This document shows positions 23,895 through 56,500 of a stretch of DNA of 64,000 nt, piece by piece. The position numbers and the translations under genes were made by a program. The notes under the pieces are model-generated. The model was given only the letters and a program-made list of their open reading frames with translations, made no database searches and was not told the DNA's origin. Numbering within the stretch: the first letter of the stretch is position 1; each line of letters begins with the position of its first letter. Origin of the DNA: Streptomyces sp. NBC_01275 (lineage in GTDB: Bacteria; Actinomycetota; Actinomycetes; Streptomycetales; Streptomycetaceae); NCBI RefSeq assembly GCF_026340655.1, contig NZ_JAPEOZ010000001.1, positions 7,874,001-7,938,000 of the forward strand. The letters run 5' to 3'.

Positions 23895-23936
23895 GGGATC
23901 GCCGGTTGGGCTAACCGGCGATCCCGCGCTATGTTG
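23895..23936 (+). repeat. Conserved palindrome/CTATGTTG element, copy 1
   Basis: A perfect 13-bp stem (23895-23907 with 23913-23925) with loop GGGCT, followed by GCTATGTTG. The same layout recurs at 37.4 and 56.5 kb. It lies between two converging genes, 24 bases from the stop of the leftward DUF317 gene. TGGGCT at 23907-23912 and TATGTT at 23930-23935 are 17 bases apart, so it could be a rightward promoter with an operator on its -35 box, or a terminator. Confidence 0.75.
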
Positions 23937-23958
23937 TCCCGCTCTTGCGTGCTGACGA

Positions 23959-25329
23959 TCAGCGTGTACGGCTGGCAGCGGGGGTGGCCGCGACCGCAGG
24001 GGGGACCGGCGGGCTGGTGACGAGGCTCGTTCTGCGTTCGGGGGTTCCGGTCTGTGGGTGGCGAGTGCCGGTTTTGTGGGCGAGGGCCTCGGAGAGATCG
24101 GCCAGCAGCGAACTCGGGGTGTGTGGGGACGCGGTGACGGCCCAGGTGGGCCGGTCAGGGCCAGGACCGGCCCAGACGGTCCAGGTGGCCAGGTTGTGGC
24201 TCGGGTGCTGGGCGGTGAAGGCGTCGAACTGGACGCCCGCGTCCCCGGTGGGGGACTTCCAGCGGATCCATCGCCCGTCCACGGTGTGCTTCCATCCGGC
24301 GTCGGAGAGGGGCTGCATGGCCACGGTGACCATCTTCTCGTCCACCGGGGCGCTGATGGCCGCGTCCCAGCCGTCGCCTTCGGCGAGGTGATTCAGCAGC
24401 TCCTCCAACATCGGGGCGGGGGTGGCGCCGGTCGCGGTGAGGACCCACATGCGGTCGGATACGGGTGTCTCGTAGGCGGCCACGGTCCACGCTGTTTCGT
24501 GAGCGGGCGTTTCGTGGACGCGCTCGATGCGCAGGGTCTGGGACTCGTGGATGGCGTGGGTCGTCTCGTCCGACCAAGTCCGCCACTTCTCCCATTCGCT
24601 GTGGGAGTCGATGAACGCGTCGAGGAGCGCGTCGTGGTCACCGGCATCGGCCAGGTAGGCCGGGACGGTCTCCGGCTCCGGACGGGCCGGTTCGGCCTTG
24701 ACTGCGGTGAGGGAGAGCGGGGCGCGGGCCTCGGCAGCGGCGCGTTCGGTGTCGGTCAGGGGTGCCGGGCCGGGGCGCATCTCGGCGCCGTGGACCTTCT
24801 CGAAGGCGAGCAGGGCCCCAGCGGGTGAGTCGAAGGTGTCGGTGACCTGGCGCAGGTGGTCCTCGCCGTGGAGGTAGACGGACTTGCCGTTGCGGTGGAG
24901 GTAGGTGCCGACCGCGACGGTGGTGTGGCCGTCGTGGGCGTGGGCGTGGATGAGGAGCTGGCCGTGGCGGATGTCGTCGTGGATCTTCTGCGCCTGATTG
25001 GAGACCTCGCGGATTTCGCTGCGGGTGCACCACGGCATCGGATAGTTCGCCCAGGTCCATTCCTCGTCCATGGCCTCCTGGAGCCGAGGGGTGACCTCCA
25101 CGGTGATGCCGTCGGCGGACAGGTGCTTGGCTGCGTCCTTGGCCCAGTAGGGCTCCTCGTGGTCGATGCGGACCAGGACCAGGAGGTTGTCGGCGACGAC
25201 GGTCCAGTCGGCTGCCTCCAGGCTCAGGTGGGCAACGTGGGCCCGGGTGCCGGTCAGGACGGCAGTCACGGCGCTTGGATGGGTGGGGTGGGTGTCGAGG
25301 CGAACGTGGGCGTCGATGGTGGGAGTCAC
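23959..25329 (-). CDS. DUF317-related protein, element-encoded
   Basis: A 456-aa protein with GTG start. The C-terminal third has the DUF317 pattern: TVWAGPGPDRPTWAVTASP followed by PSSLLADLSEALAH, and an earlier repeat of the same kind near residues 270-320 (WTVAAYETP to MLEELLNHLAEG). The first 180 residues hold a separate His-rich domain of unknown role. DUF317 proteins are abundant on streptomycete conjugative elements and have no settled function. It is the last gene of the leftward run that starts with the coupling protein and methyltransferase; copy 1 of the palindrome lies just beyond its stop. Confidence 0.75.
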   Translation of the reverse strand: MTPTIDAHVRLDTHPTHPSAVTAVLTGTRAHVAHLSLEAADWTVVADNLLVLVRIDHEEPYWAKDAAKHLSADGITVEVTPRLQEAMDEEWTWANYPMPWCTRSEIREVSNQAQKIHDDIRHGQLLIHAHAHDGHTTVAVGTYLHRNGKSVYLHGEDHLRQVTDTFDSPAGALLAFEKVHGAEMRPGPAPLTDTERAAAEARAPLSLTAVKAEPARPEPETVPAYLADAGDHDALLDAFIDSHSEWEKWRTWSDETTHAIHESQTLRIERVHETPAHETAWTVAAYETPVSDRMWVLTATGATPAPMLEELLNHLAEGDGWDAAISAPVDEKMVTVAMQPLSDAGWKHTVDGRWIRWKSPTGDAGVQFDAFTAQHPSHNLATWTVWAGPGPDRPTWAVTASPHTPSSLLADLSEALAHKTGTRHPQTGTPERRTSLVTSPPVPPAVAATPAASRTR

Positions 25330-25395
25330 GTTGGGGTGTCGTCTCTTCTGCCGGTGGCCGGGCCTTCGGGTCCGGCCACCGGCGTGTGCGGGGTG

Positions 25396-26514
25396 CTATC
25401 GGGTTGCTCGCGCGGCGCGGCCGGTGTACGCGGCCGTCGTTGTTGGCGGGCCGGCACGGGTGGTGGGCGCCGGTCGCGGTTGCGGCGTCGGGACCGTTCC
25501 GGTGGCGTGCTGCCAGCGAGTGCGGACGCCGCCGATGTCGGCGAGGGAGCGGCGGGCGCCGACGACGAGCTGGAACGGGGTGTTCGCCGTGTCGCCGGCG
25601 TACGCCTCGATGCGCCGGCCGGTGCGATCGGCGGTGGCCAGGATGGAGCGCTGCAGTGCGCGCTCGCTCCAGTGCTCCACGGAACCGGCCGGTTCGGTCA
25701 GCAGGTGGAGCACGTCGCCCGGTTCGCTTCCGTCGTCGAGCAGGCCGCGCTGTTGGGCCTCCCACAGGACGGTGACGGGGTCGACGGGCTCGCGGCGGCG
25801 CGCCAGGGCGGTCAGGCACTGCCACAGGCCGGCGTGCAAGGGCAGGGTGAGGTCGTCGGGTAGTAGCCACCGGACGGACTCGATGTCGGCAGGGTTGGCG
25901 GTGGCGGTCGCGAGCAGCATCTGCTCCTCCTCGACCGCCTCCGTGTAGTCGGGCGCGACGGGCGGCGATGGTGCCGCGGTTCGGGGCAGTACGCCTGCGC
26001 GGGGCGGGAAGCGGGCTGCGATGTCGTCCACGACCGCGGCGAGCGCGTCGGCCTCGGCGAGCACCGCCTGGACGGGGTGCGGGAGGGAGACATCGTGGGC
26101 GGTCTGGACGAGGCGTTCGGCGGCCGTCTGCAGACGGCGGCGGGCATGTTCGGCCTCGACCATCCGCGCGTAGGCAGGCGCGTGGCGGGACCAGGGACAG
26201 ACCTGAACGAGGGTGTGCAGGTACGAGGCGGTCAGCCCGCGAGCCTGCTCGCGTCCCGTGGCGAGCACGCGGTCGAGCCACTTGGTGTTCTTTGCGTGCT
26301 CGGCAGGGTCGGGCAGTGGCAGGGTGCTGATCGCGGCGTACAGGGCAGCGTGTGCGGCGGTGGAGAACGAGTCGGCGGCGATGCCGCTCACGTCGTCCAG
26401 GCGGTGCGGGTCGAGGAGGAGAGCTCCGAGGAGGGCCTGCTCGACGTGGAACACGGGCTGGGCCGGTGCGATGGCGTCGAGGTCGTCTTCGTCGAGTTCG
26501 GGGGCGTGGGGCAT
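25396..26514 (-). CDS. Protein with two DnaB N-terminal-like domains, no helicase domain
   Basis: A 372-aa protein. VEQALLGALLLDPHRLDDV at about residues 24-42 with the following helices (AHAALYAAISTL) is a DnaB N-terminal domain; EEQMLLATATANPADIESV near 197, followed by PLHAGLWQCLTALARR, is a second, diverged copy. The RecA-like ATPase half of DnaB is absent and the tail is Pro/Thr/Arg-rich. Such a protein could bind primase or the host DnaB and so help or hinder replication of the transferred element; that role is inferred. The ATG overlaps the stop of the methyltransferase (TGATG), so they are co-translated. Confidence 0.8.
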   Translation of the reverse strand: MPHAPELDEDDLDAIAPAQPVFHVEQALLGALLLDPHRLDDVSGIAADSFSTAAHAALYAAISTLPLPDPAEHAKNTKWLDRVLATGREQARGLTASYLHTLVQVCPWSRHAPAYARMVEAEHARRRLQTAAERLVQTAHDVSLPHPVQAVLAEADALAAVVDDIAARFPPRAGVLPRTAAPSPPVAPDYTEAVEEEQMLLATATANPADIESVRWLLPDDLTLPLHAGLWQCLTALARRREPVDPVTVLWEAQQRGLLDDGSEPGDVLHLLTEPAGSVEHWSERALQRSILATADRTGRRIEAYAGDTANTPFQLVVGARRSLADIGGVRTRWQHATGTVPTPQPRPAPTTRAGPPTTTAAYTGRAARATR

Positions 26515-27785
26515 CAGGCGGCGAGGGTGAAGTCGTCGGGCTCGAGGGTGACGCCGAGGTGCGGGGCGAGGAGGTGGCCGGCGAGCAGCGGGGGAACGGC
26601 GTTGCCGATCTGGGAGAACTGTTGGCCCTTGTTGCCGGCCCAGGGGTAGTCGGCGGGGAAGGTCTGCAGGAGGCCGGCCTCGCGGGCGGTGATCCGGATC
26701 GGCTCAGGAACGGCTGGCGCATCGGCTTCTTCGGCCGGCGGTGAGGCGGGTTCGGCGACCCAGGTGCACTCGTTCGCGCGGTGCCCGAAGAACAGCGTGC
26801 CGGCCGGCTCCTGGATGGACCGGACGGTGGCGTTGGCCTGGTTGTTGCTGCGCAGGGACCAGGACCAGCGGTGGGCCTCGGCGGTGAACGTGGGCGCGGG
26901 AGAGTCGGCGGCACGGTTCTCGCGTGTGCCGTGCCGGGCCGCCCATCCCGTGCCTTCACGACGGGACTGCAGGACGACCCCGTCCGGCCGGGGCATCCAG
27001 GTGCCGCGCTCCCGGGCGTCGGACAGCGTCTTGCGGGAGCCCGATGGGAACGGTTCGGGCCCGCCGCCGGGCCCACCGCCTGCGCAGACGGTAGGGACGG
27101 GCCGGTCGGTCGCGCCCCATCCCAGGGCTTCGGCCATGCTGACCCAGCGGGCGCGGCCGGGACCGAAAAGCGATTCGGGCTCCGCGAGTTGGGAATGCGT
27201 GGGCGTTGGCGGCTGCGCCGTACGGACGCGGGAGGCCAGGAGTATCGCCCGCTTCCTGGTCTGCGGGACGCCGAAGTCGGCCGCGTTGAGGATCCCGTAC
27301 CAGACGGAGAACCCCCACCCGCGCAGGACGGCCGCGTACTGCTTCCACAAGGGCAGGACGTGCGGCACTTCCTCCATGGCGACCCAGTCGGGCTCGCCGA
27401 CCGTGTTCAGGGCGTATAGATAGCGTATCGGCTCGGCTGCGAGCAGGGAGCGCTCGTCACGGCATGCGGCGAGGAGGCGTTCGCGGGAGTCCCGTCCGGC
27501 GGCCAGGTCCTCGACCGCCGCGTGCACCAGCGGCTGGTCGAGCAGGCCGAGGCGTTTGCCGGCCATGCTCCACGCCTGGCACGGAGGGGAAGCGATCATT
27601 CCGCGGGTGCGGCCGATGAAGGGCCAGGTCGGATACCTTGCCACGTCGGTGCGGATGGTCAACTGCCCAGCCGCGGCCCGGGTCTTGCACGCCCACTCGT
27701 CCCATTCCAGCCCGATGTCGCGCACGCCGAAGACGTGCAGCGCCCTGCTCCAGCCGCCCGGCCCCGCGAAGAGGTCGAGTATCAC
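26514..27785 (-). CDS. DNA (cytosine-5) methyltransferase
   Basis: A 423-aa enzyme with motif I VILDLFAGPGGWS at its start, motif IV SPPCQAWSMAG with the catalytic cysteine near residue 75, a motif-VI-like MEEVPHVLP, motif VIII QTRKRAIL and motif X QIGNAVPPLLAGHLL. I chose the GTG at 27785, which overlaps the stop of the coupling-protein gene (GTGA), over longer forms lying inside that gene. No cognate restriction enzyme is adjacent. The likely job is to protect transferred DNA from recipient restriction, or epigenetic marking. Its coupling to a transfer gene and a DnaB-like protein supports a role at transfer. Confidence 0.88.
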   Translation of the reverse strand: MILDLFAGPGGWSRALHVFGVRDIGLEWDEWACKTRAAAGQLTIRTDVARYPTWPFIGRTRGMIASPPCQAWSMAGKRLGLLDQPLVHAAVEDLAAGRDSRERLLAACRDERSLLAAEPIRYLYALNTVGEPDWVAMEEVPHVLPLWKQYAAVLRGWGFSVWYGILNAADFGVPQTRKRAILLASRVRTAQPPTPTHSQLAEPESLFGPGRARWVSMAEALGWGATDRPVPTVCAGGGPGGGPEPFPSGSRKTLSDARERGTWMPRPDGVVLQSRREGTGWAARHGTRENRAADSPAPTFTAEAHRWSWSLRSNNQANATVRSIQEPAGTLFFGHRANECTWVAEPASPPAEEADAPAVPEPIRITAREAGLLQTFPADYPWAGNKGQQFSQIGNAVPPLLAGHLLAPHLGVTLEPDDFTLAA

Positions 27786-29572
27786 CTGGCCAGCCCGAAG
27801 TCGGACTGTGTCGGCGCGTGCTTCGCGACGGCGCGGGCGGTGATCGCTTGCGATGCGCGGGCGGACGCCGCGGACAGTTCCTCGGCGCCGGGCTCCCGAT
27901 ACCACGGCCGGAGGTCGAGCATGGCGGCGCGCATGCCGGTGGCGAAGCAGAGCGCGGTGCCCTTGGGCAGGGCGCGGATCGCATCGGCGGGCAGGATCCG
28001 TTCCTGCCGCATCGACACTGACGTGCTCTTGCCGGACTCCGAGTGCGAGGTGGACGTGGTCTCCACGTCGTGGTCGCCGATCAGGCGGCTGAGCTTGTCC
28101 GCGAAGTCCGGGTCGTCAATACCGCTGCCGATCACCTTGACAGTCGAGGCGGACCACATGGCGTCCATGCCCGCGTCTCCCCAGACCTTCTGGCCCTGGC
28201 GGTAGGACTGGAGGATCGTGATCGGGATGATCCCGCGGCTGCCGAGGTGGGAGTACAGGTCTGGCAAGTCGCTGATCTTGCACACGTTGGCGGCCTCGTC
28301 GAGGATCGCCAGCATGGGCGGATCCAGGCGCCCGCCGGCACGTTCGGCCTGCGCGGTCGCGGCCCGCATCACCGAGTCCGCGCACGCGGCGATCAGCGCC
28401 GAGGCTCCGCCGCCACCGTCCTTGCTGAGTAGGAACAGCGTGTCGGTGGACGTGACGAACTGCTCCGGCCGGAATTCCGGAACGTCCCTCTGCGGCGTCA
28501 CCCACGCGGCGATTTCCGCGTTCAGGAGCGCGGAGGCGTACTGCCGGGCTGTCTCGTAGATACCGTCCCTCGTTTCCGGGGGGCCTTCGACGGTGCCCTT
28601 GAGCTGAGCGGCGACGGCGGCGAAGTCGTGGTCGCGCAGGATGTCCAGCGGAGTGCGGTCGGCGGGGAAGGCGAGCCACTGCATGATGTCGGTGATGGGC
28701 CGCTCGTCGAGCGCCGCGGCCAAGAGCAGCTGGGACAAGATGTTGCTGCCGGCCTTCGACCAGAAGTCGCCCTGCTGGGAGGCGTCCACCGAGGCCGCGA
28801 GGAAGTGTCCGGCCAGACGGTTCGCCCCGTCCAAGGTGGTCGCGCTGGCGAGAGGGTTCCACCACATCTCGCGGGCGGCATGCGCGATCTGCTGTGGATC
28901 CATGGTCCACACCGCCCCCACCCGGGCCCTTGCCTCGTAGGCGGTGGTGAAGGCGTCGCCGGCGGCCTTGTTCGACGTCAGCAGGACCGGGCCGGGTGCG
29001 CCGAGCATGGACGGGATGGCGAGCGAGGTGGTCTTGCCGGACCGGGGCGCCATGATCGCGACGGCGACGTCCTCGAACCCCATCCGTACCTCGTGGCGGC
29101 TGCCCTGCAGGTTGCCGAGAAGGATGCCGGTGTCCTTCGCGTCGATGTGCTTGCTGTCCTTCAGGCTGGGGCGCAGGGAGCGGGCTTTGTCGGTGATCGC
29201 CTTGGCCATCAGCGGCTCGATGTCCCGGGCCTTGGCCATGTCGGTGATCTTCTTCCGGCTGCCGCTTCGGTTGTTGTGCCGGGCCCACAGGACGCCAGCC
29301 CCTGCCCCGAGAGCGAGGAGCAGGAGAACGGGGACGATGCGGGCACCGATCAGCAGGGACGTTTCTCCTGCGTCGGACCAGACCTGCTCGGGGTGGAGCA
29401 GGGCGTTGGTCGGCTGGTAGGGGGCCCAGCTGGTGCCGGTGAGGTAGGCGGTGATGTTGCCGGACAGCCAGGCCAGGTGGGACAGGGGGGCGACGACGGC
29501 GAGCACCCCGAGGAGGAGGCGCAGGAAGAGGTCGTATCCGTTGGTGTTGCTGCTGGAGGAGGAAGGGGGCAA
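27782..29572 (-). CDS. VirD4/TraG-type conjugal coupling ATPase
   Basis: A 596-aa protein. Two or three membrane segments lie in the first 110 residues. The P-loop IMAPRSGKTTSLAIP is near residue 182, the Walker B MLAILDEAANVC near 410, and a TraM-recognition-type domain (ITILQSYRQGQKVWGDAGM) follows. This is the T4SS coupling protein that docks the relaxase-DNA complex at the membrane and pumps DNA. The start is a TTG at 29572. The gene is translationally coupled to the C5 methyltransferase. The matching VirB4-like ATPase and channel proteins lie 16-23 kb away on the same strand. Confidence 0.92.
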   Translation of the reverse strand: MPPSSSSSNTNGYDLFLRLLLGVLAVVAPLSHLAWLSGNITAYLTGTSWAPYQPTNALLHPEQVWSDAGETSLLIGARIVPVLLLLALGAGAGVLWARHNNRSGSRKKITDMAKARDIEPLMAKAITDKARSLRPSLKDSKHIDAKDTGILLGNLQGSRHEVRMGFEDVAVAIMAPRSGKTTSLAIPSMLGAPGPVLLTSNKAAGDAFTTAYEARARVGAVWTMDPQQIAHAAREMWWNPLASATTLDGANRLAGHFLAASVDASQQGDFWSKAGSNILSQLLLAAALDERPITDIMQWLAFPADRTPLDILRDHDFAAVAAQLKGTVEGPPETRDGIYETARQYASALLNAEIAAWVTPQRDVPEFRPEQFVTSTDTLFLLSKDGGGGASALIAACADSVMRAATAQAERAGGRLDPPMLAILDEAANVCKISDLPDLYSHLGSRGIIPITILQSYRQGQKVWGDAGMDAMWSASTVKVIGSGIDDPDFADKLSRLIGDHDVETTSTSHSESGKSTSVSMRQERILPADAIRALPKGTALCFATGMRAAMLDLRPWYREPGAEELSAASARASQAITARAVAKHAPTQSDFGLAR

Positions 29573-29575
29573 GGG

Positions 29576-29803
29576 CTATGTGCTTCCGGGCGGGGAGGGA
29601 GGGTTAGCGGCTGCGGCCGTGCCTGGGCGGCGCTGGCCGTGAGGCGATCGAGGCCGTCGGCGTGGTGGTGTGTCGGGCGGGAGCGAGTGAACGCGGTCTT
29701 CCAGCGCGCCGGCGACGTACACGGCGAGCACGCCGGTCGTCCGGCGGATGACGACGTTCGGGTCGAGGGTCGGCAGACTGCGCCCGCTGTCGGTGCGGTG
29801 CAC
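29576..29803 (-). CDS. Small hypothetical protein upstream of coupling-protein gene
   Basis: A 75-codon frame with GTG start. The first half (LPTLDPNVVIRRTTGVLAVY, then VAGALEDRVHSL) has strong third-position GC bias and looks genuinely coded; the tail is Pro/Arg-rich. GGAAG lies about 10 bases before the GTG. The coding signal seems to continue upstream in frame into the end of the neighbouring DUF317 gene but without a start codon, so the real N-terminus is uncertain. No family is recognised. Confidence 0.4.
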   Translation of the reverse strand: MHRTDSGRSLPTLDPNVVIRRTTGVLAVYVAGALEDRVHSLPPDTPPRRRPRSPHGQRRPGTAAAANPPSPPGST

Positions 29804-29879
29804 GGGCTTCGCTTCCGGATCAGCCGGTGTTCCCAGCCGCTCGACGTACGCCGTCTTGTCGGGGGAAGCAAGGCCGTTG

Positions 29880-30275
29880 TCACCGTACGGTGACCAGCCG
29901 GCCTGCCCGGAGCGCTCCGTACGGGTCGCAAGGCGCGTCAGCGGCTGGGGCCGGGTCGGTGAGGGCGTCGGTGAAGGCGGCGATCAGTTCGACGGCCGTG
30001 CGGGTGCCGAAGCTGGCGTACCAGGCGGGCCGGTCCGGCTCGGCGACGTGGTGCAGGATCCACCACTGGTCGTCGGGGTCGGGCTCCAGGCGCAGGTGGG
30101 CCTTCTGGTCGGGGCTGGAGAGCAGGACGCGTGGCATCAGGGGGTCGTTGCCGTGGCTCCATCCGCAGGCACGGTGGAGGGGAACGGTGATCCAGGCGGG
30201 GTCACCGCCGCCGGCGAGGTGGCGCGGGTTGATGAAGCCGACCTCGACGGTCTCGGGAGTCGGGGCCCTAGTCAC
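29880..30275 (-). CDS. DUF317 protein, single domain
   Basis: A 131-aa protein built around one DUF317 unit: INPRHLAGGGDPAWITVPL near residue 16, then LRLEPDPDDQWWILHHV, then WYASFGTRTAVELIAAFTDA near 95. The GTG at 30275 overlaps the preceding gene's stop (GTGA), so longer in-frame starts were rejected. The family is frequent on streptomycete conjugative elements, with no agreed function; the repeated W-x-ASFG and AFTDAL blocks suggest a small alpha/beta binding module. Confidence 0.8.
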   Translation of the reverse strand: MTRAPTPETVEVGFINPRHLAGGGDPAWITVPLHRACGWSHGNDPLMPRVLLSSPDQKAHLRLEPDPDDQWWILHHVAEPDRPAWYASFGTRTAVELIAAFTDALTDPAPAADAPCDPYGALRAGRLVTVR

Positions 30276-30784: not shown

Positions 30785-30857
30785 GTAGTGGTCGAGGTGG
30801 CGCAGGAAGTCGCGGTGTGCGTGGTGGTCTCGGGAGATGGGGAGGGGTCCTTTCAGG

Positions 30858-32017: not shown

Positions 32018-32045
32018 CGGGCTCCTCGGGGCGGGGCTATTGCGG

Positions 32046-33229: not shown

Positions 33230-33251
33230 GCTCCTCCGGGGCGGTGGACGG

Positions 33252-33912: not shown

Positions 33913-33926
33913 GTGGTTCTCCGGGG

Positions 33927-36060: not shown

Positions 36061-36906
36061 CTACGGCGATCGGTGGGCGTTGTGCCGGACGGCGTCCGGG
36101 GCCGGGACGGCGCGGGACTGGACCAGGCGGTTTGCGGTGGTGGCCAGGTCCTGCTGGATGGCGTAGAGGCGGCGGGCAATCAGCTCCAGGCGGTGTGCCG
36201 TATCGGTGTCGGCTGCTCCCGGCTGGCGGGCGATCCGGTGCGAGGTGTGCTCGACGAGTCCGCGTACCGCGGCCAGAGGGCCGGCCTGTTCGTCGGCGAG
36301 CTGCGTGAGGATGGTCGCGAGCTGGGCCGACGCCGTGAGCGCCGCGCGGACGGCAGGCCGCGAAGGGGGGTCGGATCGGACAGGGATCAGGTGGAGGTCC
36401 TGTTCGATGCGACGCGCCTCCTGTGCCAGGCGCCGCAGTTTGTCCGCGGGAGGAGCGTGCCACGCGCCGTCGAGGTGGATTAGGTTGGCGATCAGATCGA
36501 GGCGCCCTGGCTGCGCCTGGACAGCGATCCATCGGCAGCCATGTTCCTTGCCGGGGATCTCGATGCCGGCGGCTCGTGCGAGCCGTTGAGCGACCTCGGC
36601 CCACTCCGGTCCGGTCAGTTCCCGGTCGTCCGGGTGAAGGCGGATGTCTAGGTGGAGGATTGCCCGCCGGTCGTCGTCGGGGCTGGCGGCGAACGGATGC
36701 TCCAGGTAGGGGTCTTCGAGGTGCTCGGCCCACTGGACGGACGTCCAGATCCTCTGCTCGTCGTCCAGGGTGAAGTAATCCAGGCCGGGCCAGCGGGCGA
36801 CGATCGTGTGCTCCGTCAGGCCCTCGTTCGGTGAAACCGGCCGCCCCAGCGCCTCTTCGAGCGGGTCGTGGGGCCGGTGGGTCCGCTCGTGCAGGCGGGG
36901 GATCAC
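36061..36906 (-). CDS. Relaxase-like protein lacking the HxH motif
   Basis: A 281-aa protein that resembles the N-terminal part of streptomycete MobA/VirD2-type relaxases: it begins MIPRLHER, has LHLDIRLHPDDRELTGPEWA near residue 90 and AQRLARAAGI, then GCRWIAVQAQPGRLDLIANL near 125. In active relatives the last block carries metal-binding histidines (as in DHIHIVATL, from memory); here they are replaced by RLDLIANL. The C-terminal half is helical. It is therefore probably not a nicking enzyme but could bind DNA or a true relaxase. GTG at 36906 overlaps the previous stop (GTGA). Confidence 0.6.
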   Translation of the reverse strand: MIPRLHERTHRPHDPLEEALGRPVSPNEGLTEHTIVARWPGLDYFTLDDEQRIWTSVQWAEHLEDPYLEHPFAASPDDDRRAILHLDIRLHPDDRELTGPEWAEVAQRLARAAGIEIPGKEHGCRWIAVQAQPGRLDLIANLIHLDGAWHAPPADKLRRLAQEARRIEQDLHLIPVRSDPPSRPAVRAALTASAQLATILTQLADEQAGPLAAVRGLVEHTSHRIARQPGAADTDTAHRLELIARRLYAIQQDLATTANRLVQSRAVPAPDAVRHNAHRSP

Positions 36907-37331
36907 CGGCCGCTCCGGATGTCGGCGATGTGCACGAGCTGGCCCAGGGCGGTGGTGGTGTACCAGCCGCAGTCGATCAGCTCGTCGCGGTCGGCGAACC
37001 GTGCGAGGAGGGTGTTCTCCATGGCCCGTAGATAGATCAGGCAGTCAGGGCAGCGGCGTGAGAGGTGCACGAGGTAGCGGGGGTGGGCGGTGACGTAGGA
37101 CTGGGCGCCGCCGGTCGCATCCCGCAGACGCCACCCGTCCTCGTCGGTCGGGGTGTGCCAGGAAGGGGCAACGACGCGCATCGCGTCGCCCCACAGTTCT
37201 CCGCCGGCCACCCCCTTCAGGACGACGACGGTGTCACCGGCCTGGAAGTGGGCGTGGGTGATGTCCCGGTCGGGGGTGAGCGGGTCGGGCGTCGGTGCGA
37301 AGACCGAGGAGGTGGGTGGGGGCTGGGACAT
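36903..37331 (-). CDS. Hypothetical protein with KOW/SH3-like N-terminal part
   Basis: A 142-aa protein; ATG with GGAAGGA 6 bases upstream. Residues 25-80 (FQAGDTVVVLKGVAGGELWG, then YVTAHPRYLVHL) look like a small beta-barrel. CPDCLIYL near 95 is a CxxC pair. No specific family is known to me. It is the first gene after palindrome copy 2 and is coupled to the relaxase-like gene, so the pair may act together. Confidence 0.72.
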   Translation of the reverse strand: MSQPPPTSSVFAPTPDPLTPDRDITHAHFQAGDTVVVLKGVAGGELWGDAMRVVAPSWHTPTDEDGWRLRDATGGAQSYVTAHPRYLVHLSRRCPDCLIYLRAMENTLLARFADRDELIDCGWYTTTALGQLVHIADIRSGR

Positions 37332-37381
37332 GAGTTCCTTCCGCGCGGTTGCTGGCGGGGTGGGAGCATCAATAGTCCGGA

Positions 37382-37422
37382 GGAACGCCGGTTTGGCTAA
37401 CCGGCGTTTCCCGGCTATGTTG
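37382..37422 (+). repeat. Conserved palindrome/CTATGTTG element, copy 2
   Basis: Stem AACGCCGGTT/AACCGGCGTT (37384-37393 and 37399-37408) with loop TGGCT, followed by GGCTATGTTG. The two outer stem pairs differ from copy 1 in a compensatory way. TTGGCT at 37393-37398 and TATGTT at 37416-37421 are 17 bases apart. It sits about 10 bases beyond the stop of the leftward gene at 37431 and about 50 bases before the next leftward gene. Confidence 0.75.
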
Positions 37423-37430: not shown

Positions 37431-37928
37431 TCAGCGGAAGGGGTTCTCCGTCCCGCGGTCCGCCTCACTGGCCGCGTCGAGGAGTTCGAGCAGGTCAGTG
37501 CCGTCGGCGTCGCGCTGGTCGATCCACCATCCGGCACGGGTGATGGAGCGGGCCTTCTCTTCCAGCTCCGCCCAGTCCGCCTCGTCCCAAGTGCCCTCGA
37601 CGACGAGCGCGGTGTGCGCGGCCGTCATCAGTTGGTGGCGGGAGCGCTCGCCCCAGTCCAGGGCCTTCTCCGGGCCCTCCAGCTGCGGCATGTCGAACTG
37701 CTTGGCCCACGCGACGGCTGCCTCCTGCTCCTCGGCACGCTTGGTCGCGAGCCACTCGTCCTTGGACTCGGAGTCGGCGTCGCGCGCCGCCTTCCAGCAG
37801 TTGGTGCAGTCCTTCGACGCGAGCCAACGGGCAAAGCCTGCCCGCTTGTCGGCAGGGCGATTGGACAGGTCATGATCCACGCTGTGGGAGCAGGCGTGCT
37901 CCACGGTCCAGTGCGTACGCACGGCCAT
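37431..37928 (-). CDS. Hypothetical Cys/His-containing conjugative-element protein
   Basis: A 165-aa protein; ATG with GAGGAG 8 bases upstream. The N-terminus has VEHACSHSVDHDLSNRPADK followed by CTNCWKA, a Cys/His set that may bind zinc. The rest is helical and acidic (TWDEADWAELEEKARSIT). Similar proteins are common on streptomycete conjugative elements; no role is assigned. It ends just before palindrome copy 2. Confidence 0.75.
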   Translation of the reverse strand: MAVRTHWTVEHACSHSVDHDLSNRPADKRAGFARWLASKDCTNCWKAARDADSESKDEWLATKRAEEQEAAVAWAKQFDMPQLEGPEKALDWGERSRHQLMTAAHTALVVEGTWDEADWAELEEKARSITRAGWWIDQRDADGTDLLELLDAASEADRGTENPFR

Positions 37929-48669: not shown

Positions 48670-48697
48670 GGGGCAGGTCCTGGAGGCGCGGGTGGAA

Positions 48698-48736
48698 CCC
48701 GGGGGCGGGAGGGCGCGTGCACGTCCCGCCCCCGGG
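48698..48736 (-). terminator. Strong hairpin inside the transfer operon
   Basis: CCCGGGGGCGGGA (48698-48710) and TCCCGCCCCCGGG (48724-48736) form a perfect 13-bp stem with a 13-base loop. It lies just beyond the stop of the SCO6881-type gene and about 30 bases before the SCO6880-type start. There is no T-run. It may attenuate or partly terminate transcription, or protect the upstream mRNA. Confidence 0.6.
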
Positions 48737-48750
48737 AGTCGGTCAGGGAA

Positions 48751-50121: not shown

Positions 50122-50157
50122 GGGGAGTTACTCCTCCTTTCGTGTCTCAGGCGCGGG

Positions 50158-50847
50158 TCACTGCGTGACGCTCGGAGCGATGGCGGCCAGGGTGCAGTCG
50201 TGGTTCGGGCGGCACTGGACGGCGAGCGTCACGGCCCGTTCCTCGGCCCCTCCGCCGCCCTTCTTCCAACTGAGCGTCTGCTTGCCGTTGACGGTGACGA
50301 CGTAGATGTACGCCTCAGTGATCGCGGACGGGTCCTCGGCCAGGGCCTGCTTGAACGCGCTGGGGTAGTGGCCCTCGGTGACGTGGGCGGTGGCGTGCTG
50401 GTCCTGGTCGGCCATCCGTGACCACAGCACGGGGTCAGGAACCTGGCCGGAGACCGAGGCCCAGTCGGCGTACTTGGTCTCGGCGGTCATCCAGGCGCGC
50501 ATGCCGGCGAGCTGCTGGTCGCGGCTGGTGTCACGGGTGTCGTAGGACCACAGCATCTGGGCCGCTGCCTTGGCGTAGGCGATCGGCTCGGAGATCTGCG
50601 GCGGCTTGGGCACCGACCCGGATCCGGAGGAAGGCTTCGGGGCGGCCTCGGAGGAGGACGGGCTGCCGGTTGGGGCAGGAGCCACGGCGCCCGGAGCCTG
50701 GTGGCTATTCCCGCCTCCGGTCAGCAGGGCGACGACCCCGGCGATGGCGAGCAGGACGGCGGCGGCGGCGACGATCGCGATGCGCCGGTTGGCCGACCAC
50801 CCCGAGCCGTACGAGGACAGTGAGAGGGACGGGGATCGTTTCCGCAT
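50158..50847 (-). CDS. Conjugal transfer protein, VirB8/TcpC-like
   Basis: A 229-aa protein: short basic cytoplasmic N-terminus, one membrane segment (IAIVAAAAVLLAIAGVVALL, residues 23-42), a Pro/Ser-rich linker and a soluble domain (AAAQMLWSYDTRDTSRDQQL to ALAEDPSAITEAYIYVVTVN). That is the VirB8/TcpC layout, an NTF2-like scaffold on the outer face of the membrane. ATG overlaps the previous stop (TAATG). Assignment is by topology and position. Confidence 0.75.
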   Translation of the reverse strand: MRKRSPSLSLSSYGSGWSANRRIAIVAAAAVLLAIAGVVALLTGGGNSHQAPGAVAPAPTGSPSSSEAAPKPSSGSGSVPKPPQISEPIAYAKAAAQMLWSYDTRDTSRDQQLAGMRAWMTAETKYADWASVSGQVPDPVLWSRMADQDQHATAHVTEGHYPSAFKQALAEDPSAITEAYIYVVTVNGKQTLSWKKGGGGAEERAVTLAVQCRPNHDCTLAAIAPSVTQ

Positions 50848-51161
50848 TAGTGGACCTGCGAGCCCAGGCCGGAGAAGAAGGCCACGATGCCGTTCGCGGC
50901 GCCCAGACCGAGGGCGGCGCCGGCGGCGACCACGGCGCCCTTCTTCCCGTTGGCCTCAGCCTGGTGGCCACCGGTGTGGTGGCCCCAGGCCCAGACGCCG
51001 AGCGAGACGGCGAGGGCGCCAACGACGGCGATGATGCCGAACATGTTGATCGAGTTGACGACGTTCTTCAGCACGCTCAGGCCGGGCAGGCCACCGCCCT
51101 TGGGTGAAATTCCTGGGTCATAGGCGAGCTGGATGACGCGGTCTGCGAGGGGGACGGACAT
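50847..51161 (-). CDS. Small membrane protein, DUF6112-like (pilin/VirB2-like)
   Basis: A 104-aa protein with two hydrophobic segments (MFGIIAVVGALAVSLGVWAW near residue 40 and VVAAGAALGLGAANGIVAFF near 76) separated by a short polar loop. Size and topology recall VirB2-type pilins and the DUF6112 family found at this place in actinomycete T4SS operons. The ATG has GGAG about 12 bases upstream. It is coupled to the VirB8-like gene. Confidence 0.72.
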   Translation of the reverse strand: MSVPLADRVIQLAYDPGISPKGGGLPGLSVLKNVVNSINMFGIIAVVGALAVSLGVWAWGHHTGGHQAEANGKKGAVVAAGAALGLGAANGIVAFFSGLGSQVH

Positions 51162-51297
51162 AGGGGTGGTGGGGCTCCTTGCATACGCGGGCCCAGTGAG
51201 GGCCGGCGGGGAAGGCGAAAGCGGAGGGGGGCGCGCGAAGGGCGCGGAAGTGGCCGTGGGGCCAGGGCGCCCGGGGCGATGCCTGGCGGGGGCGGCG

Positions 51298-52422
51298 TCA
51301 GAGGACGCGGCGGGCGGCGAGAATCGTCCAGTCCTTGATCGGGGTGATCCGGACCGGCTTGGTGGTGCGCGGCGCCTCGATCACGAGGCCCTCGCCCATG
51401 TACATGCCGACGTGCTCGGGCCGGGCGGCGGTGCCGCGGCTGAAGACCAGGTCACCGGGCTTGAGATGAGCGGGCGAGATCGCCTTGCCTTCGTTGACCT
51501 GCGTGTACGTCGTGCGGGTGAGCGTGATTCCGGCGTGGGCGTACGCCTGCTGCATCAGCGAGCTGCAGTCGCAGCGGCCCATGGGGTCAGGACCATGCGA
51601 CTTCGTGCAGGAGCCGCCCCACTGGTAGAGCGTCCCGAGCTGCTGCATCGCCCAGATGATGGCCTTGCGCGCCTTCGGATCGGCGTCCTTGGGGATCGAG
51701 TAACCCTTCGGGACGCTCCCCTCGGGGATGCGGCCGAACCCGGAACCGTCCTGGCCCGGCGCGCAGCCGGTCGTGGTCGACTGCTTGTCCTGGTCCGTGT
51801 CCTTGCCGTCCGCGTCACCGCCGCCGGGGAAGCTCTTGGCGATGGCGCCCTGCAGCGCGGTGGCGAGCTTCTCCCACTGCGCGTAGGCGTCTGGCAGGCC
51901 GGACTTCTGCACGGCTTGGGCGGCCTGGGTGACGGTCATCTGCTGCCACCCGCTCACTTTGAGCAAGTGCTTGTAGAACTGCTCGCTCGCGTAGGTGGGG
52001 TCGCGGATCTGCTCGGCGCTGCCCCAGCCCTGGGAAGGGCGCTGCTGGAAGAGGCCGAGGGAGTCGCGGTCGCCGTAGGCGAGGTTGCGCAGTCGGCTCT
52101 CCTGCATCGCCGTGGCGAGCGCGATGATCTGTCCCTTCTTGGGGACGTCGAGGGAGAGGCCGGCGGCCACGATCGTCTGGGCGTTGGGGACCTGCTCGGC
52201 GGGCAGGTCCAGGCCCTCGACGTGCACGTCCTTGCCGAAGGCGCCGTCGAGGATCTTGGTGACCTGTTCGGTGACCTTGTCGCTGTCGATGTCGCTCAGG
52301 CAGCTGCTGAAGGAGCCGCTGCTCTGCACGGCGTCGGCCGAGGAGGCCAGCATCATGCCGGTGCCGGCGATCAGGATCGGGGAGAGGAAGACGACGCCGA
52401 TGCCGGCGGCGAGCCCCTTCAA
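51298..52422 (-). CDS. C40 (NlpC/P60) peptidoglycan hydrolase of the transfer system
   Basis: A 374-aa exported protein. A membrane/signal segment lies in the first 30 residues. The middle (IIALATAMQESRLRNLAYGD, then SLGLFQQRPSQGW) is lysozyme/SLT-like, and the C-terminal domain has the catalytic Cys in RCDCSSLMQQAYAHAG and the His in EHVGMYMGEGLVIEAP. It should open the cell wall for the transfer apparatus (VirB1-like). The start is a TTG at 52422 overlapping the stop of a 20-codon leader frame. First structural gene after the leftward promoter. Confidence 0.88.
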   Translation of the reverse strand: MKGLAAGIGVVFLSPILIAGTGMMLASSADAVQSSGSFSSCLSDIDSDKVTEQVTKILDGAFGKDVHVEGLDLPAEQVPNAQTIVAAGLSLDVPKKGQIIALATAMQESRLRNLAYGDRDSLGLFQQRPSQGWGSAEQIRDPTYASEQFYKHLLKVSGWQQMTVTQAAQAVQKSGLPDAYAQWEKLATALQGAIAKSFPGGGDADGKDTDQDKQSTTTGCAPGQDGSGFGRIPEGSVPKGYSIPKDADPKARKAIIWAMQQLGTLYQWGGSCTKSHGPDPMGRCDCSSLMQQAYAHAGITLTRTTYTQVNEGKAISPAHLKPGDLVFSRGTAARPEHVGMYMGEGLVIEAPRTTKPVRITPIKDWTILAARRVL

Positions 52423-52481
52423 TCCGAGCGGACCGCTCGCCGGTCAGCGGCTTCGGGCATGGGTGGGTAGCGAGACGTCAT
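52419..52481 (-). CDS. 20-codon leader frame coupled to the C40 peptidase gene
   Basis: ATG at 52481 has AAGGA 7 bases upstream and reads MTSRYPPMPEAADRRAVRSD before a TGA. That TGA shares two bases with the TTG start of the peptidase gene (TTGA). It may serve to couple translation, or it may be the cytoplasmic N-terminus of the peptidase cut off by an indel, since type-II membrane proteins often have such a basic N-terminus. Confidence 0.45.
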   Translation of the reverse strand: MTSRYPPMPEAADRRAVRSD

Positions 52482-52701
52482 GTACGTGTCCTTGGGGGTG
52501 CGGTGTCCGGCATACCGCGTGCGCGAGGCGTCTCGGAAGGGCGCGGCAGCCGGGGTAGGCGATCGGGGCGGGCCGGTGCGGGGCGAGTTGCCGCTCGCTC
52601 CGCGTGGCCGGGCCGTGAGCTAGGTGTGCCGGGGCAAGGGGTACCTCCGTGAGGTGTGGCAGGGGAGTGGCCAGCGGGGGTGTGCGCCGGGCGGTTCAAA
52701 A

Positions 52702-52730
52702 ACAGTAGGCGCGGATCGGCGGTTGACCAA
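52702..52730 (-). promoter_or_regulatory. Leftward promoter of the transfer operon
   Basis: On the minus strand TTGGTC (52730-52725) is followed after 17 bases by TACTGT (52707-52702), then TTTTTGAAC. The rightward promoter 50 bp away has almost the same elements. The start point would be near 52695, about 210 bases before the leader frame. Confidence 0.6.
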
Positions 52731-52777
52731 AAAGTCGGCGTGAGGTGCCGGAAACCGATACCTCGACAGGGCACTTC

Positions 52778-52806
52778 TTGGTCGTCGGCGGTTTCGCCTC
52801 TACAGT
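52778..52806 (+). promoter_or_regulatory. Rightward promoter of the methyltransferase gene
   Basis: TTGGTC (52778-52783), 17 bases, TACAGT (52801-52806), then TTTTTGGAC. The -10 flank TAC(A/T)GTTTTTG matches the leftward promoter, which suggests common control of both arms of the element. The start point would be near 52813, leaving a leader of about 125 bases. Confidence 0.6.
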
Positions 52807-52937
52807 TTTTGGACTCCCCCTCGCCCTCCTCGGTCTGCGGCCCTGGGCTTCTGCATGCCCACTTCCGGCCCGCGAGGACTCCTGCGCGAGGCGGCTATTT
52901 CCCTCCGCGTTTCCGCAACCCGAATCGGGGTTCCTCT

Positions 52938-53693
52938 TTGCCTTTTTCCCTTCACCAGGGCGACGCTCTGGCCGTTCTCTCCGGCCTTCCGGACGGCTGC
53001 GTCGACTCCGTCATCACCGACCCGCCGTACAACAGCGGAGGCCGGACCGCGAAGGAGCGCACCACGCGCTCCGCGAAGCAGAAGTACACCTCCGCCGACG
53101 CCAAGAACGACCTCGCCGACTTCACTGGCGAGAACATGGACCAGAGGTCCTACTCGTTCTGGCTGACGCAGATCATGACCGAAGCCCACCGCCTTACCAA
53201 GACCGGCGGGACGGCCCTGCTGTTCACCGACTGGCGCCAGCTCCCGACGACGACGGACGCGATCCAGGCGGCCGGATGGCTGTGGCGCGGTGTCCTGGCC
53301 TGGCACAAGCCGCAGGCCAGGCCCCAGAAGGGCCGGTTCACCCAGAACTGCGAGTTCATCGTCTGGGCCAGCAAGGGGCCGATCGATGGCTCCCGCAACC
53401 CCGTCTATCTGCCTGGCATGTACTCGGCTTCGCAGCCCTCTGGCGCGAAGCGCCAGCACATCACGCAGAAGCCGGTCGAGGTGATGCGCGAGCTGGTCAA
53501 GATCAGCCCCGAGGGCGGCACGGTCCTCGACTTCTGCGCCGGCTCCGGCTCCACGGGCGTGGCCGCCCTGCTGGAAGGCCGGGACTTCATCGGCGTGGAG
53601 AAGACCGAGCACTACGCGTCGATTGCGGCCGACCGGCTCACCGAGACGATCCGCGCAACCCTCACGCAGGACGACGTGGTTCTCACCGCCTGA
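52938..53693 (+). CDS. DPPY-type DNA methyltransferase (N4-cytosine/N6-adenine)
   Basis: A protein of about 251 aa. The catalytic motif SVITDPPYNSGG is near residue 25; the AdoMet motif VLDFCAGSGSTGVAALLEGR is near 200, followed by FIGVEK. This motif order is that of beta-class enzymes. The start is uncertain; I use the TTG at 52938, since upstream in-frame codons lie before or at the promoter and no ATG or GTG fits. No partner nuclease is adjacent, so anti-restriction or regulatory methylation is likely. First gene of the rightward arm. Confidence 0.85.
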   Translation: MPFSLHQGDALAVLSGLPDGCVDSVITDPPYNSGGRTAKERTTRSAKQKYTSADAKNDLADFTGENMDQRSYSFWLTQIMTEAHRLTKTGGTALLFTDWRQLPTTTDAIQAAGWLWRGVLAWHKPQARPQKGRFTQNCEFIVWASKGPIDGSRNPVYLPGMYSASQPSGAKRQHITQKPVEVMRELVKISPEGGTVLDFCAGSGSTGVAALLEGRDFIGVEKTEHYASIAADRLTETIRATLTQDDVVLTA

Positions 53694-53843
53694 GCCGCGT
53701 CCTTGCCCGTCGCCAAGGCGACCAGCTCCCACCGCAGCCGTAGGCGAAATACCGCCGGAGGAACGTGCTATCCGCCGGCGGCGCCGCGCGAGGGCGCCCC
53801 CGCACTTCCCTCATTCCGCGTCTCGTAGGAGGCCGACTTCTCA

Positions 53844-54485
53844 ATGCCCGAATCCGCAAAACCTGCCGACGATGGAGAGTTGGAGCCGATTCGTATTCCG
53901 GATCCACAGCTGGAGGGAATCGAGGCGAGCGTGCGACGGCTCATGGAGCAGTCGGCGCAACAGGCTCAGCAGCTCGACCACCTAGCGTCCGCCCCGTCGC
54001 CGAGTGGATCACCGTTCGCCGCGTTCGGCATGCCGGGACTCGGCGGCCCGCCGGCCGCCGCTCCACCGGAGCCCCGCCCGATCCTGGAACTGGACGGAGA
54101 GGAACGCGAGGACGAACTCGACGCCCTGTCCGACTGGGTCGACGACTTCTTCCTCCCGGTCTACGGGGCGGAGGTCACCACCGCGGCGCCCTGGTGCCTG
54201 CAGTGGCAGGAGCACGACGACGTCGTGGCCTGGCTCCATGCCTTGTGGCTCGCCTACCAGCAGCACAAGGACCCCGAAGCCGGGCTCTCCGGTCTGTTCG
54301 TGTGGCACCGGGACTTCCTCACCCACGCCGTCGCGGCGATCCGCGCACCGGGCGGCCCGCTGTCGGCCTGCATGACCTCTCCCGACCGGCCCGCACACCG
54401 TCTCCTGCCCGGCCCGCCGCCGTCCGTACGGACGGAGACGGCGGCCACGGCGGAAGCCACTGACCAGGACGAGCCGGCGTCATGA
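53844..54485 (+). CDS. DUF4913 protein
   Basis: A 213-aa protein. The C-terminal half (LSDWVDDFFLPVYGAEVTTA, WCLQWQEHDDVVAWLHALWL, FVWHRDFLTHAVAAIRAPGG) is the DUF4913 domain, a conserved module of actinomycete mobile elements. The first 85 residues are helical then Pro/Gly-rich. ATG with AGGAGG 12 bases upstream. It overlaps the RelE-like gene by 4 bases. Function unknown. Confidence 0.82.
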   Translation: MPESAKPADDGELEPIRIPDPQLEGIEASVRRLMEQSAQQAQQLDHLASAPSPSGSPFAAFGMPGLGGPPAAAPPEPRPILELDGEEREDELDALSDWVDDFFLPVYGAEVTTAAPWCLQWQEHDDVVAWLHALWLAYQQHKDPEAGLSGLFVWHRDFLTHAVAAIRAPGGPLSACMTSPDRPAHRLLPGPPPSVRTETAATAEATDQDEPAS

Positions 54486-54967
54486 CCGCGGGACAGGGAC
54501 AGCCCGCCTTCGGACTGAGCTTCGATCCGCGCGCGCTGACCGATCTCCTCCAGGCTCCCAGCGACATACGCGACCTCACCCTTGCCTACCTGCAGGAAGT
54601 CGTGAACGCGCAGCGCTTCGGGCTGCGCCTCGACGGTGACCTGGAGGGCTGTCGAAAGCTGTTCGTGGACTCCCGCAAGGACTGGCGCGTCGTCTACGCC
54701 GTCCGGTCGGCGCCCGCGGAGTCCGCCCATCACAAGGAGATTCACGTCGTCGCGATCCGGCCGCGCGCGGGCAACGACGTCTACGACGAGGTCGGCCGCC
54801 GTCTGGGCATGACTCGCCGGCCACTGAGCGCCCGCACCCACGCGGCACGCTCCCGTTCCCCGCAACTGGCCGCCCGCGCGCCCGTGCCCCGGCCCGGTCC
54901 GCCGCCCACTGCGCCACCGGGTCTGCCCCGTCCCGCACCGAACCCCGCGCACCATCCCACCCGCTGA
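54482..54967 (+). CDS. RelE/ParE-like protein
   Basis: A 161-aa protein. The segment LEGCRKLFVDSRKDWRVVYA, then KEIHVVAIRPRAGNDVYDEV (residues about 55-110) has the beta-strand and Arg pattern of RelE/ParE toxins or Gp49-like relatives. The tail is Pro/Arg-rich and disordered. ATG overlaps the DUF4913 stop (ATGA). If it is a toxin, the coupled DUF4913 protein is the only candidate antitoxin; a non-toxic RNA-binding role is equally possible. Confidence 0.65.
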   Translation: MTAGQGQPAFGLSFDPRALTDLLQAPSDIRDLTLAYLQEVVNAQRFGLRLDGDLEGCRKLFVDSRKDWRVVYAVRSAPAESAHHKEIHVVAIRPRAGNDVYDEVGRRLGMTRRPLSARTHAARSRSPQLAARAPVPRPGPPPTAPPGLPRPAPNPAHHPTR

Positions 54968-54985
54968 ACGCACGGAGCGTCGCCT

Positions 54986-55674
54986 ATGCCCCCTGAACCC
55001 GCGCCGACACCCTCCCGGCGTGCGGTCTCCCCGCTCGACCATCGCCTCGAAGCCGCCACCGGGCACGACATCGACACCCTGTGGGCCTACCGCGACCGCG
55101 GCGTCCTCGACGAGCAGCACGCCCAACTGGTGGACCGGCACCGGAAGCTGGCCAAGACCCAGACTGGCGTCATCTTCCATCTGCGCCTCCTCAACCGCCT
55201 GTCCAGCGGCGAGTTCGACGTCGACGGCGCTCTGTTCACGCGTATCGACCGCACCGTGGACCAGTTGGAAGAGGCTGCCGACGCGCGGGACGCCGCTGCC
55301 GGGATGTGCTCGCCGTCCTGGAGCCCATCGAAGCCGCAGCAGCGTCCGTCGCGCAGCAGCTCTCGACGGACGACCAGGCGGCGCTGCTCGCCATCTCCGG
55401 CGGCGCCAAGCTCTACGAACACCTGCTGACCGGCCGGATGTCCGTCACAGCCGCCTCCGGCACCCGCATCCCCCACACCAAGCTGCGGCGGCTGGAGGAC
55501 GCCGGCCTGGTCGCCCGGGACACCGGCCACCCCGTACAAGCCGGCCAGCCAGTCGCGCTCACCGACGCCGGAAGAGCCGCGCTGTTCGCCGCCCGCCGGG
55601 CCCCCACGACGCAGACGCCGAAGGTCCCAGCTCGCCCCGGCACATCGCCGTCCACTCCGGCGCAGCGGCGCTGA
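54986..55674 (+). pseudogene. Winged-helix-like protein gene with a frameshift
   Basis: The ATG at 54986 opens a helical N-terminal part (LDHRLEAATGHDIDTLWAYR to EEAADARDAAAG). At the GGG of 55301-55303 the coding signal moves to the -1 frame: DVLAVLEPIEAAAASVAQQL, then GTRIPHTKLRRLEDAGLVAR and ALTDAGRAALFAA, a winged-helix/MarR-like end, to the TGA at 55674. One more G would give a single protein of about 229 aa. A second gene starting at the GTG at 55306 is the alternative, but it lacks a ribosome site. Confidence 0.6.
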
Positions 55675-55695
55675 ACTCCACCGAAAGGCCCCTTG

Positions 55696-56436
55696 TTGTC
55701 TCCCACCGAACCGGCGCCGGTCCGGAAGTCCATCCCCCAAGTCGACTTCGATCTGGACGACCTCGACGCCGACGAGGAGAGGTACCTCGACTTCTACCGC
55801 AAGGTCGGCGTCCACGAGGACATGCTCGTCCCCCTCGCCGAACATCACGACGGTCCGCACAGCTACTACGTCCTGTTCGACCGCACGGCGACCTGGGGAC
55901 ACCCCGGCATGCCCCAGGTGCTCGCCGTGCATCTGCAACGGGACCACGAGAAGCGGACGTTCAGCTTCGAGAAGGCCCCGCTGCCGCTGCCCGCGATGGC
56001 GCAGTCCTGGCTCATCCACCGCGGCTGCCCGCACGATGTCATCGGCCTCGACCCCGAGCTGGGCCCGCCGCCGGCTGACGAGGCCACGCGAGCACTGGAG
56101 CGACGCCTCGCCGGCGACGGCGACCACTACGCCATGGGCTACTCCTACACCAGCGACGACCCGGACGACATGGTCGTCGTCGTGGCACTGCGTGCCCTGG
56201 ACGAACGCGCCCCGTCGCCGTTCCGCGTTGTGGTCGAAGAGGTCGACACCGACACCTGGACGCACACCCTGCGCGAGGGCGGCTTCGACACGGTGAGCGA
56301 GGCCCTTCAGTGGTGCGACGACCGGCTCACTGGCGAGGCCGGCCCTCTCCCGCCGGTCCGCCCGGCAGCCGCCGCCAGCCGCCTGGCCGGTGTGGTGAAG
56401 GCCCCTGCCCCGCGCCCGCCCGGCCGTTCGCGCTGA
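55696..56436 (+). CDS. Hypothetical protein
   Basis: A 246-aa acidic protein with TTG start; AAAGG lies 7 bases upstream of this TTG (another TTG precedes it directly). Two similar alpha/beta parts: FDLDDLDADEERYLDFYRKV to LAVHLQRDHEKRTFSFEKAP, and DPDDMVVVVALRALDERAPS to TLREGGFDTVSEALQWCDD. The pattern of a beta hairpin followed by a helix recalls DUF317-like modules, but this is not secure. Palindrome copy 3 lies 26 bases past its stop. Confidence 0.72.
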   Translation: MSPTEPAPVRKSIPQVDFDLDDLDADEERYLDFYRKVGVHEDMLVPLAEHHDGPHSYYVLFDRTATWGHPGMPQVLAVHLQRDHEKRTFSFEKAPLPLPAMAQSWLIHRGCPHDVIGLDPELGPPPADEATRALERRLAGDGDHYAMGYSYTSDDPDDMVVVVALRALDERAPSPFRVVVEEVDTDTWTHTLREGGFDTVSEALQWCDDRLTGEAGPLPPVRPAAAASRLAGVVKAPAPRPPGRSR

Positions 56437-56460
56437 GCGCTCAGCCCGACGCGGGCGGCG

Positions 56461-56500
56461 CAACATAGCCGACGATTGCCGGTTAGCCAAACCGGCGATT
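56461..56500 (-). repeat. Conserved palindrome/CTATGTTG element, copy 3
   Basis: On the minus strand this reads as copies 1 and 2: hairpin AATCGCCGGTT/AACCGGCAATC with loop TGGCT, then GGCTATGTTG. TTGGCT (56490-56485) and TATGTT (56467-56462) are again 17 bases apart. One stem pair is G-U/C-A. Copies 2 and 3 also share AGTCCGGAG on the other flank. It lies between the 55696 gene and the SH3-like gene. Confidence 0.75.

Follow-up and report, generated by a model that had tools for sequence, protein, structure and literature searches.

Dispersed, oriented sites are a familiar feature of lambda-type repressor control and of the L5 stoperators. For IncA/C plasmids and the SGI1/MGIVmi1 islands, the accessible text of PMC4207636 describes AcaCD, an experimentally tested activator, for which one motif lies upstream of xis and of transfer and mobilization genes and is common to a conjugative element and unrelated mobilizable islands. 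Here, we analyzed a 64,000-nucleotide stretch of Streptomyces sp. NBC_01275 (contig NZ_JAPEOZ010000001.1, positions 7,874,001 to 7,938,000; hereafter, the window), in which an earlier note had reported three copies of a palindrome with a fixed flank. On comparison of their sequences, these repeats probably act as the operator-promoters of a single regulon extending through a Streptomyces integrative and conjugative element (ICE) and would be read by a protein that the element encodes. No description of the motif was found in the literature searched, including the accessible parts of PMC4170104, PMC8584621, PMC9513070, PMC8955417, PMC4207636 and PMC10711302, with most subscription journals outside this coverage.

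Aligned with their relatives, the three repeats are copies of one 53-bp imperfect dyad, located as follows:

23884..23936, + strand: site 1, a class A element between a DUF5655 gene (+) and the last SPDY gene (−)
37370..37422, + strand: site 2, a class B element, 8 bases past a 165-amino-acid (aa) gene and 38 bases ahead of a 142-aa gene
56461..56513, − strand: site 3, a class C element, 24 bases past a 247-aa gene and upstream of an SH3_3 gene

The unit has the layout CAAT-N14-CCGGTT-loop-AACCGGCGAT-N6-CTATGTTG, with TGGCT as the loop of the general formula; class C copies start with TAAG, not CAAT. At all three sites, the (T/G)GGCT loop, the stem, CTATGTTG at a fixed distance and the TTGGCT-like and TATGTT boxes 17 bases apart are as the earlier note described them. 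The hairpin and flank that it took for the unit are both present, but the full unit is the 53-bp dyad. The loop of site 1 is GGGCT and its first box, hence, TGGGCT, still at the 17-base spacing. Searching the window for the core CCGGTTNGGCTAACCGGC with up to three mismatches gave seven matches, namely each of the three sites on either strand and one more, compared with a shuffle mean of 0.28. With a matrix built from 120 distinct copies, the six sites of the surrounding region scored 71.8–83.9 bits, while opposite-strand reading of the same six reached at most 18.3 bits, the next place −33.1 and the best of the reversed control −43.4. The repeats are a non-chance sequence family, and the first observation is confirmed.

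The search of the whole replicon suggested in the earlier note found six full copies, all at 7849186–8006808 (within 158 kb, in the ICE-like region) of the 10.4-Mb contig, and none in the reversed control. Across the genus, the 53-bp form occurs in 116 of 295 genomes. A class-wide sample of 296 genomes gave 11 matches, every one of the same genus, and none of the 268 sampled genomes of other genera of the class carries the element. Among the matches listed, named database records belong to Streptomyces, Kitasatospora aureofaciens and Actinacidiphila oryziradicis; with a composite query, four Streptomyces plasmid records contained the element and the phage records searched gave no match, and two viral contigs carry it. 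The copies and one-sided sites examined below are likewise those among the matches listed. For the 53-bp form, 131 copies were collected, of which one cut by a contig end (L121) was removed; the remaining 130 have 120 distinct cores. Copies whose surroundings were identical were merged, loci L007–L036 (chance hits) and L002–L004 (same as the window) were excluded, and the named database records lie outside the 130. The 14 palindrome bases alone, used as a query, matched 157 of the 295 genomes. Of 30 such loci fetched, 19 have the CTATGTT box (at most two mismatches) at the fixed distance, and the 11 without it have different loops, among which L303 and perhaps L309 resemble decayed relatives.

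The placement of the boxes suggests a direction for the element. Reading towards CTATGTTG, 117 of the 120 distinct cores have TANNNT where a −10 box would be expected, a count inflated because the collection patterns contain CTATGTTG, and TTG stands 17 bases away in 105. At the mirror place on the other strand, TANNNT occurs in none of the 120 cores, and none of the 130 copies has it within two bases of that place. Judged from these letters, the direction towards CTATGTTG appears better supported than the opposite strand.

Loop and core letters tend to co-vary from site to site within an ICE and vary from one ICE family to the next. In 24 clusters (117 copies), loops from the same cluster were identical in 150 of 234 pairs (shuffled mean 52.2, maximum 76 of 10,000 shuffles), as was the second loop letter in 210 of 234 (shuffled mean 108.2, maximum 142), where a cluster denotes a genome or region and need not be a single element, and where the loop-pair shuffle ignores the descent of the ICEs, though it compares different sites of one element. 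The clusters were typed from the rows listed and represent part of the genomes with at least four copies; an earlier version used 14 clusters. One host (G057) holds two ICE regions that differ in code and that each have a 142-aa gene of their own. Upstream of 20 fetched distant relatives of the 142-aa gene, a subset with 59–71% identity, 19 have the same architecture, with TATA at the −10 place in 19 of 19 and a GGGGATC core in 15 of 19, and with loops that include TCGGT, TCCGA and TGGCT among others. The sites are confined to the element and change in concert within it, apart from G265 and single copies. Concerted, ICE-specific letters of this kind would be expected of sites evolving with the element's protein and, therefore, imply an element-specific DNA-binding protein. 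The shared regulatory circuit proposed in the earlier note is in this respect supported by the comparison.

Further evidence comes from a one-sided form of the element that precedes the transfer operons. In the window, the relevant features are:

52700..52731, − strand: one-sided relative TTTGGTCAACCGCCGATC-N5-CTACTGTTT, pointing at the NlpC/P60 operon
52778..52808, + strand: methylase-facing mate, with the TTGGTC-17-TACAGT boxes kept and the AACCGSSGATC spacer motif lost
51298..52422, − strand: NlpC/P60 gene, the first behind the one-sided putative promoter
52656..53693, + strand: N6_N4 methylase frame, whose true start must be further right, behind the putative promoter of the mate

Boxes, spacing and spacer motif are the same as in the 53-bp form. 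The one-sided form is present in 61 of the 295 genomes, 55 of which also have the 53-bp form (Fisher, 2e-20). Its 80 distinct matches, including 12 that are 53-bp class E copies, target NlpC/P60 (30), the methylase operon (14), the RIRTIKPE gene of small elements (30) or none of these (6). Several ICEs contain two one-sided copies back to back, 75 bases apart, each facing one operon, and a one-sided relative lies 171–184 bases to the right of 16 of the 20 class E copies. One-sided copies also follow the letters of their own ICE, as with AACCGGGGATC in G188, G268, G038 and G012, and one-sided TTTCGGC..GGGGATC occurs where the dyads read TTTCGGT..GGGGATC. The methylase-facing mate was detected by a lax search (five mismatches) in the position that the full motif occupies in relatives; that it keeps the boxes and loses the spacer motif indicates that the boxes are separable from the recognition site.

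How the 53-bp copies lie relative to genes was assessed with gene borders from a simple home-made gene caller, after sorting into classes by flanking sequence. The genes next to the three window sites are:

23959..25329, − strand: SPDY (DUF317) gene at the end of the DNA-processing genes, with its 3′ end targeted by site 1
37431..37928, − strand: 165-aa gene without a Pfam match, with its 3′ end targeted by site 2
36903..37331, − strand: 142-aa gene behind site 2, without a Pfam match and with relatives in 67 of the 295 genomes
55693..56436, + strand: 247-aa gene without a Pfam match, with its 3′ end targeted by site 3

Gaps between element and targeted gene are 22, 8 and 24 bases for sites 1, 2 and 3. 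According to the earlier note, all three repeats would point antisense into a 3′ end. This is the case at these three sites and, as a rule, in classes B and C, where a stop lies within 30 bases in 16 of 17 and 15 of 16 copies, but it extends to only six of 22 class A copies (right-hand stop) and to no copy of classes D (0 of 19) and E (0 of 20). On the left-hand side, class A has a convergent stop within 150 bases in 14 of 22 copies, class B a start 38–40 bases away in 14 of 17 and class C a start within 150 bases in nine of 16. Class D copies lie upstream of HTH_17 and integrase genes, and class E copies adjoin an XRE gene (HTH_31/HTH_3) of small elements. In one such element (L333), the gene order is integrase, HTH_17, XRE, class E copy, MobC/NikA-like and relaxase homologue, with a back-pointing copy (F) 13 bases past the homologue; the latter lacks a Pfam match and is named through 62% identity to a protein of the NBC_01275 ICE that matches Relaxase.

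The site family, its spread, the box geometry, the orientation of the one-sided form and the concerted letters together suggest the following mechanism. Each site would be a promoter with TATGTT as its −10 box, and the −35 and spacer region (TTGG..AACCGGCGATC) would form the recognition sequence of the element's DNA-binding protein. As the 53-bp form mirrors this sequence, its −35 region could accommodate a dimer, while the one-sided form before the transfer operons would offer a single half-site. Through these sites, the protein might coordinate the genes for excision, DNA processing and transfer. Small relaxase-bearing elements carry the same sites, and B, C and part of the A copies would then point antisense into the last gene of an operon. 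We infer from the comparison that transcription starts from the boxes and that a single protein, encoded by the element, binds them. A more speculative extension, for which we see only an outside chance, is a two-way switch. Here, half-sites would turn on the sense promoters of transfer operons and full dyads would shut antisense promoters at the 3′ ends of the same operons, so that the ICE would be silent through antisense transcription; the letter code would insulate co-resident ICEs, with matching small elements listening in.

Several results weigh against the operator-promoter reading. The promoter with an operator over its −35 box that the earlier note envisaged agrees with the box counts and with the one-sided relatives pointing at transfer operons, but an E. 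coli-type promoter scan under a stricter rule, run on three 2-kb regions, listed none at the three sites. The TANNNT count carries the inflation stated above. In the TCGGT family, TTG has been lost from the −35 place (an ICE family other than that of NBC_01275 reads TTC there), which makes a −35 box for RNA polymerase doubtful in that family. Class B and C copies face antisense into the ends of operons, a position in which an ordinary promoter would make little sense. The letter rule is broken in G265, which has mixed loops, and in G013 and G266, which hold one or two odd copies. Lastly, no convincing candidate for the cognate DNA-binding protein was found in the element. The XRE protein of the small elements has no relative in the NBC_01275 region, and a 411-aa XRE protein near a class D copy (8004503–8005735) occurs in 35 of the 295 genomes, fewer than the 116 with elements, and also in some genomes without elements. 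Among other candidates considered, the LexA-like 'MarR' protein of NZ_CP050439 has no match in the region, and the SCO3932 motif is absent from the sites.

Hairpin formation, for which a DNA site has no need, also tells against the promoter interpretation and bears on a different one, raised as an alternative in the earlier note, in which the repeats are bidirectional terminators or other RNA hairpins at operon ends. All three sites fold into stable GC-rich hairpins, B and C copies lie just past stop codons, and folding of the top strand is favored over that of the bottom strand in 101 of 120 cores, by a mean of 2.5 kcal/mol, a bias that fixed loop and box letters alone can cause. The long stem is strong in class A only. 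When right arms were re-dealt among the copies of a class and symmetric pairs were counted at six outer positions, pairing exceeded the shuffles in class A (4.75 of six pairs versus 3.81, 0 of 2000), class D (3.94 versus 3.51, 0.004) and the mixed rest (2.66 versus 2.26, 0.0015), with no excess in B (2.36 versus 2.70), C (2.30 versus 2.17) and E (1.64 versus 1.44, 0.09), although site B folds well with bulges, which the symmetric-pair count misses. Because excess pairing is limited to A, D and the mixed rest, the long stem is not general, and the compensatory stem changes of the earlier note are strong in the class of site 1 and not elsewhere; in class A, often between convergent genes, the stem may have a second use. 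A T run directly behind a stem, as in an intrinsic terminator, was found nowhere in the three 2-kb regions, a terminator does not need the conserved loop, box and core letters, and classes D and E lie away from gene ends. A terminator family is unlikely, and we give the wider hairpin interpretation little credence. With regard to other RNA or single-stranded forms, Rfam returned nothing at gathering scores, a leader RNA pairing between A and D (about ten complementary bases, by eye) is broken in NBC_01275, and a single-stranded-DNA promoter (Frpo-like) was set aside because copies occur on both strands and the −35-like box lies in the loop.

Two DNA-level alternatives complete the comparison. 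The working promoter could lie on the other strand, making the element an operator upstream of the left-hand gene (the 142-aa gene at B, SH3_3 at C, xis-int at D, XRE at E) and CTATGTTG the regulator's upstream contact. This would account for the left-hand starts of classes B and C, for the position of D copies ahead of HTH_17 and integrase genes and for a TACAAAT box that, with boxes placed by eye, ends ~6 bases ahead of the XRE gene ATG in class E. It is at odds with the empty mirror place in all 130 copies, with class A, where none of the 22 copies has a left-hand start within 150 bases and 14 have a convergent stop, and with the one-sided form, in which the opposite half alone is present and points at genes; we regard it as rather improbable. 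Alternatively, the repeats might serve the element in handling its DNA, during partition, replication or transfer, and not in transcription. Dyad symmetry, the dispersal of several copies over each element and confinement to mobile elements fit such a site, but the fixed places at gene borders, the copies on both strands, the one-sided copies pointing at operons and the boxes kept where the spacer motif is lost leave it with a very slim chance. The operator-promoter reading, thus, remains the one that we favor.

The setting is that of an ICE-like region of putative extent. The window encodes a type IV secretion system (T4SS) coupling protein and SPDY/DUF317, DnaB N-terminal, methylase and NlpC/P60 proteins, with a weak EccE match; a relaxase (Relaxase profile match) is located at 7954016–7956337 (L069:16016–18337), and further copies of the element adjoin integrase or HTH_17 genes. 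Defense genes are also present. DISARM-type genes occupy window positions 259–11383 (−), where DrmA, DrmMI and DrmD models match three adjacent proteins, and Wadjet-type genes 15909–21341 (−), where JetC3 and JetA3 models match; the JetC frame covers ~1000 of 1486 model positions and, therefore, may be shortened or misframed. The DUF5655 protein (22740–23804, +), with a sub-threshold NucS_C match, is convergent to class A copies in many ICEs. A CutA1 gene (L072:8113–8433, L334:9727–10062) is found at a distance of 640–910 bases to several class D copies, in ICEs from more than one species. Two small 'plasmids' of Streptomyces sp. SNU607, L289 (NZ_CP050439.1) and L290 (NZ_CP050438.1), carry complementary pieces of this ICE family, among them a coupling protein 93% and a 142-aa gene 89% identical, and are perhaps fragments of one element. 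Elsewhere in the NBC_01275 genome, positions 727311–727335 (L442) hold a damaged TCGGT-type element with a class D flank and without the box, a relic of a second ICE, and at 5645308–5645339 (L414) a one-sided GGGGATC-type copy adjoins an XRE-like frame and represents a second, small element.

In the accessible literature searched, we found no description of how T4SS-type ICEs of Streptomyces are silenced or activated. A genus-wide, element-specific operator code would name promoters to map and provide bait for the regulator, and it predicts which of the ICEs and small relaxase-bearing elements in a strain respond to a common protein. If real, promoters directed backwards from the ends of operons would be an unusual way of silencing transfer operons.

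Compared with described systems, the likeness to lambda-type control and the L5 stoperators is one of layout. In the small elements, the start of the XRE gene adjoins the 53-bp site, across which a divergent operon is found, and the NBC_01275 ICE has no relative of that gene. KorSA/Pra of pSAM2-type elements, in the available text of PMC8584621, is likewise encoded by a Streptomyces integrative element whose excision and replication genes it regulates; its motif, AC[TC]T[AG]TT[GC][TG][GT]ACG, differs, with a single one-mismatch window match (24567) away from the sites. The sps palindrome of pIJ101 resembles our element as a conserved Streptomyces plasmid palindrome bound by an element protein, SpdA2, but in the part of PMC4170104 that was accessible it measures 12 bp, recurs within spdA and is linked to stability, a distinction drawn from its description. 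AcaCD belongs to other bacteria and reads another motif, the regulator is putative in our case, and copies pointing at operon ends were not seen for AcaCD in the text consulted. The parallel lies in the distribution, as here too copies accompany integrase and HTH_17 genes of the ICE and likewise those of small elements that encode a relaxase homologue.

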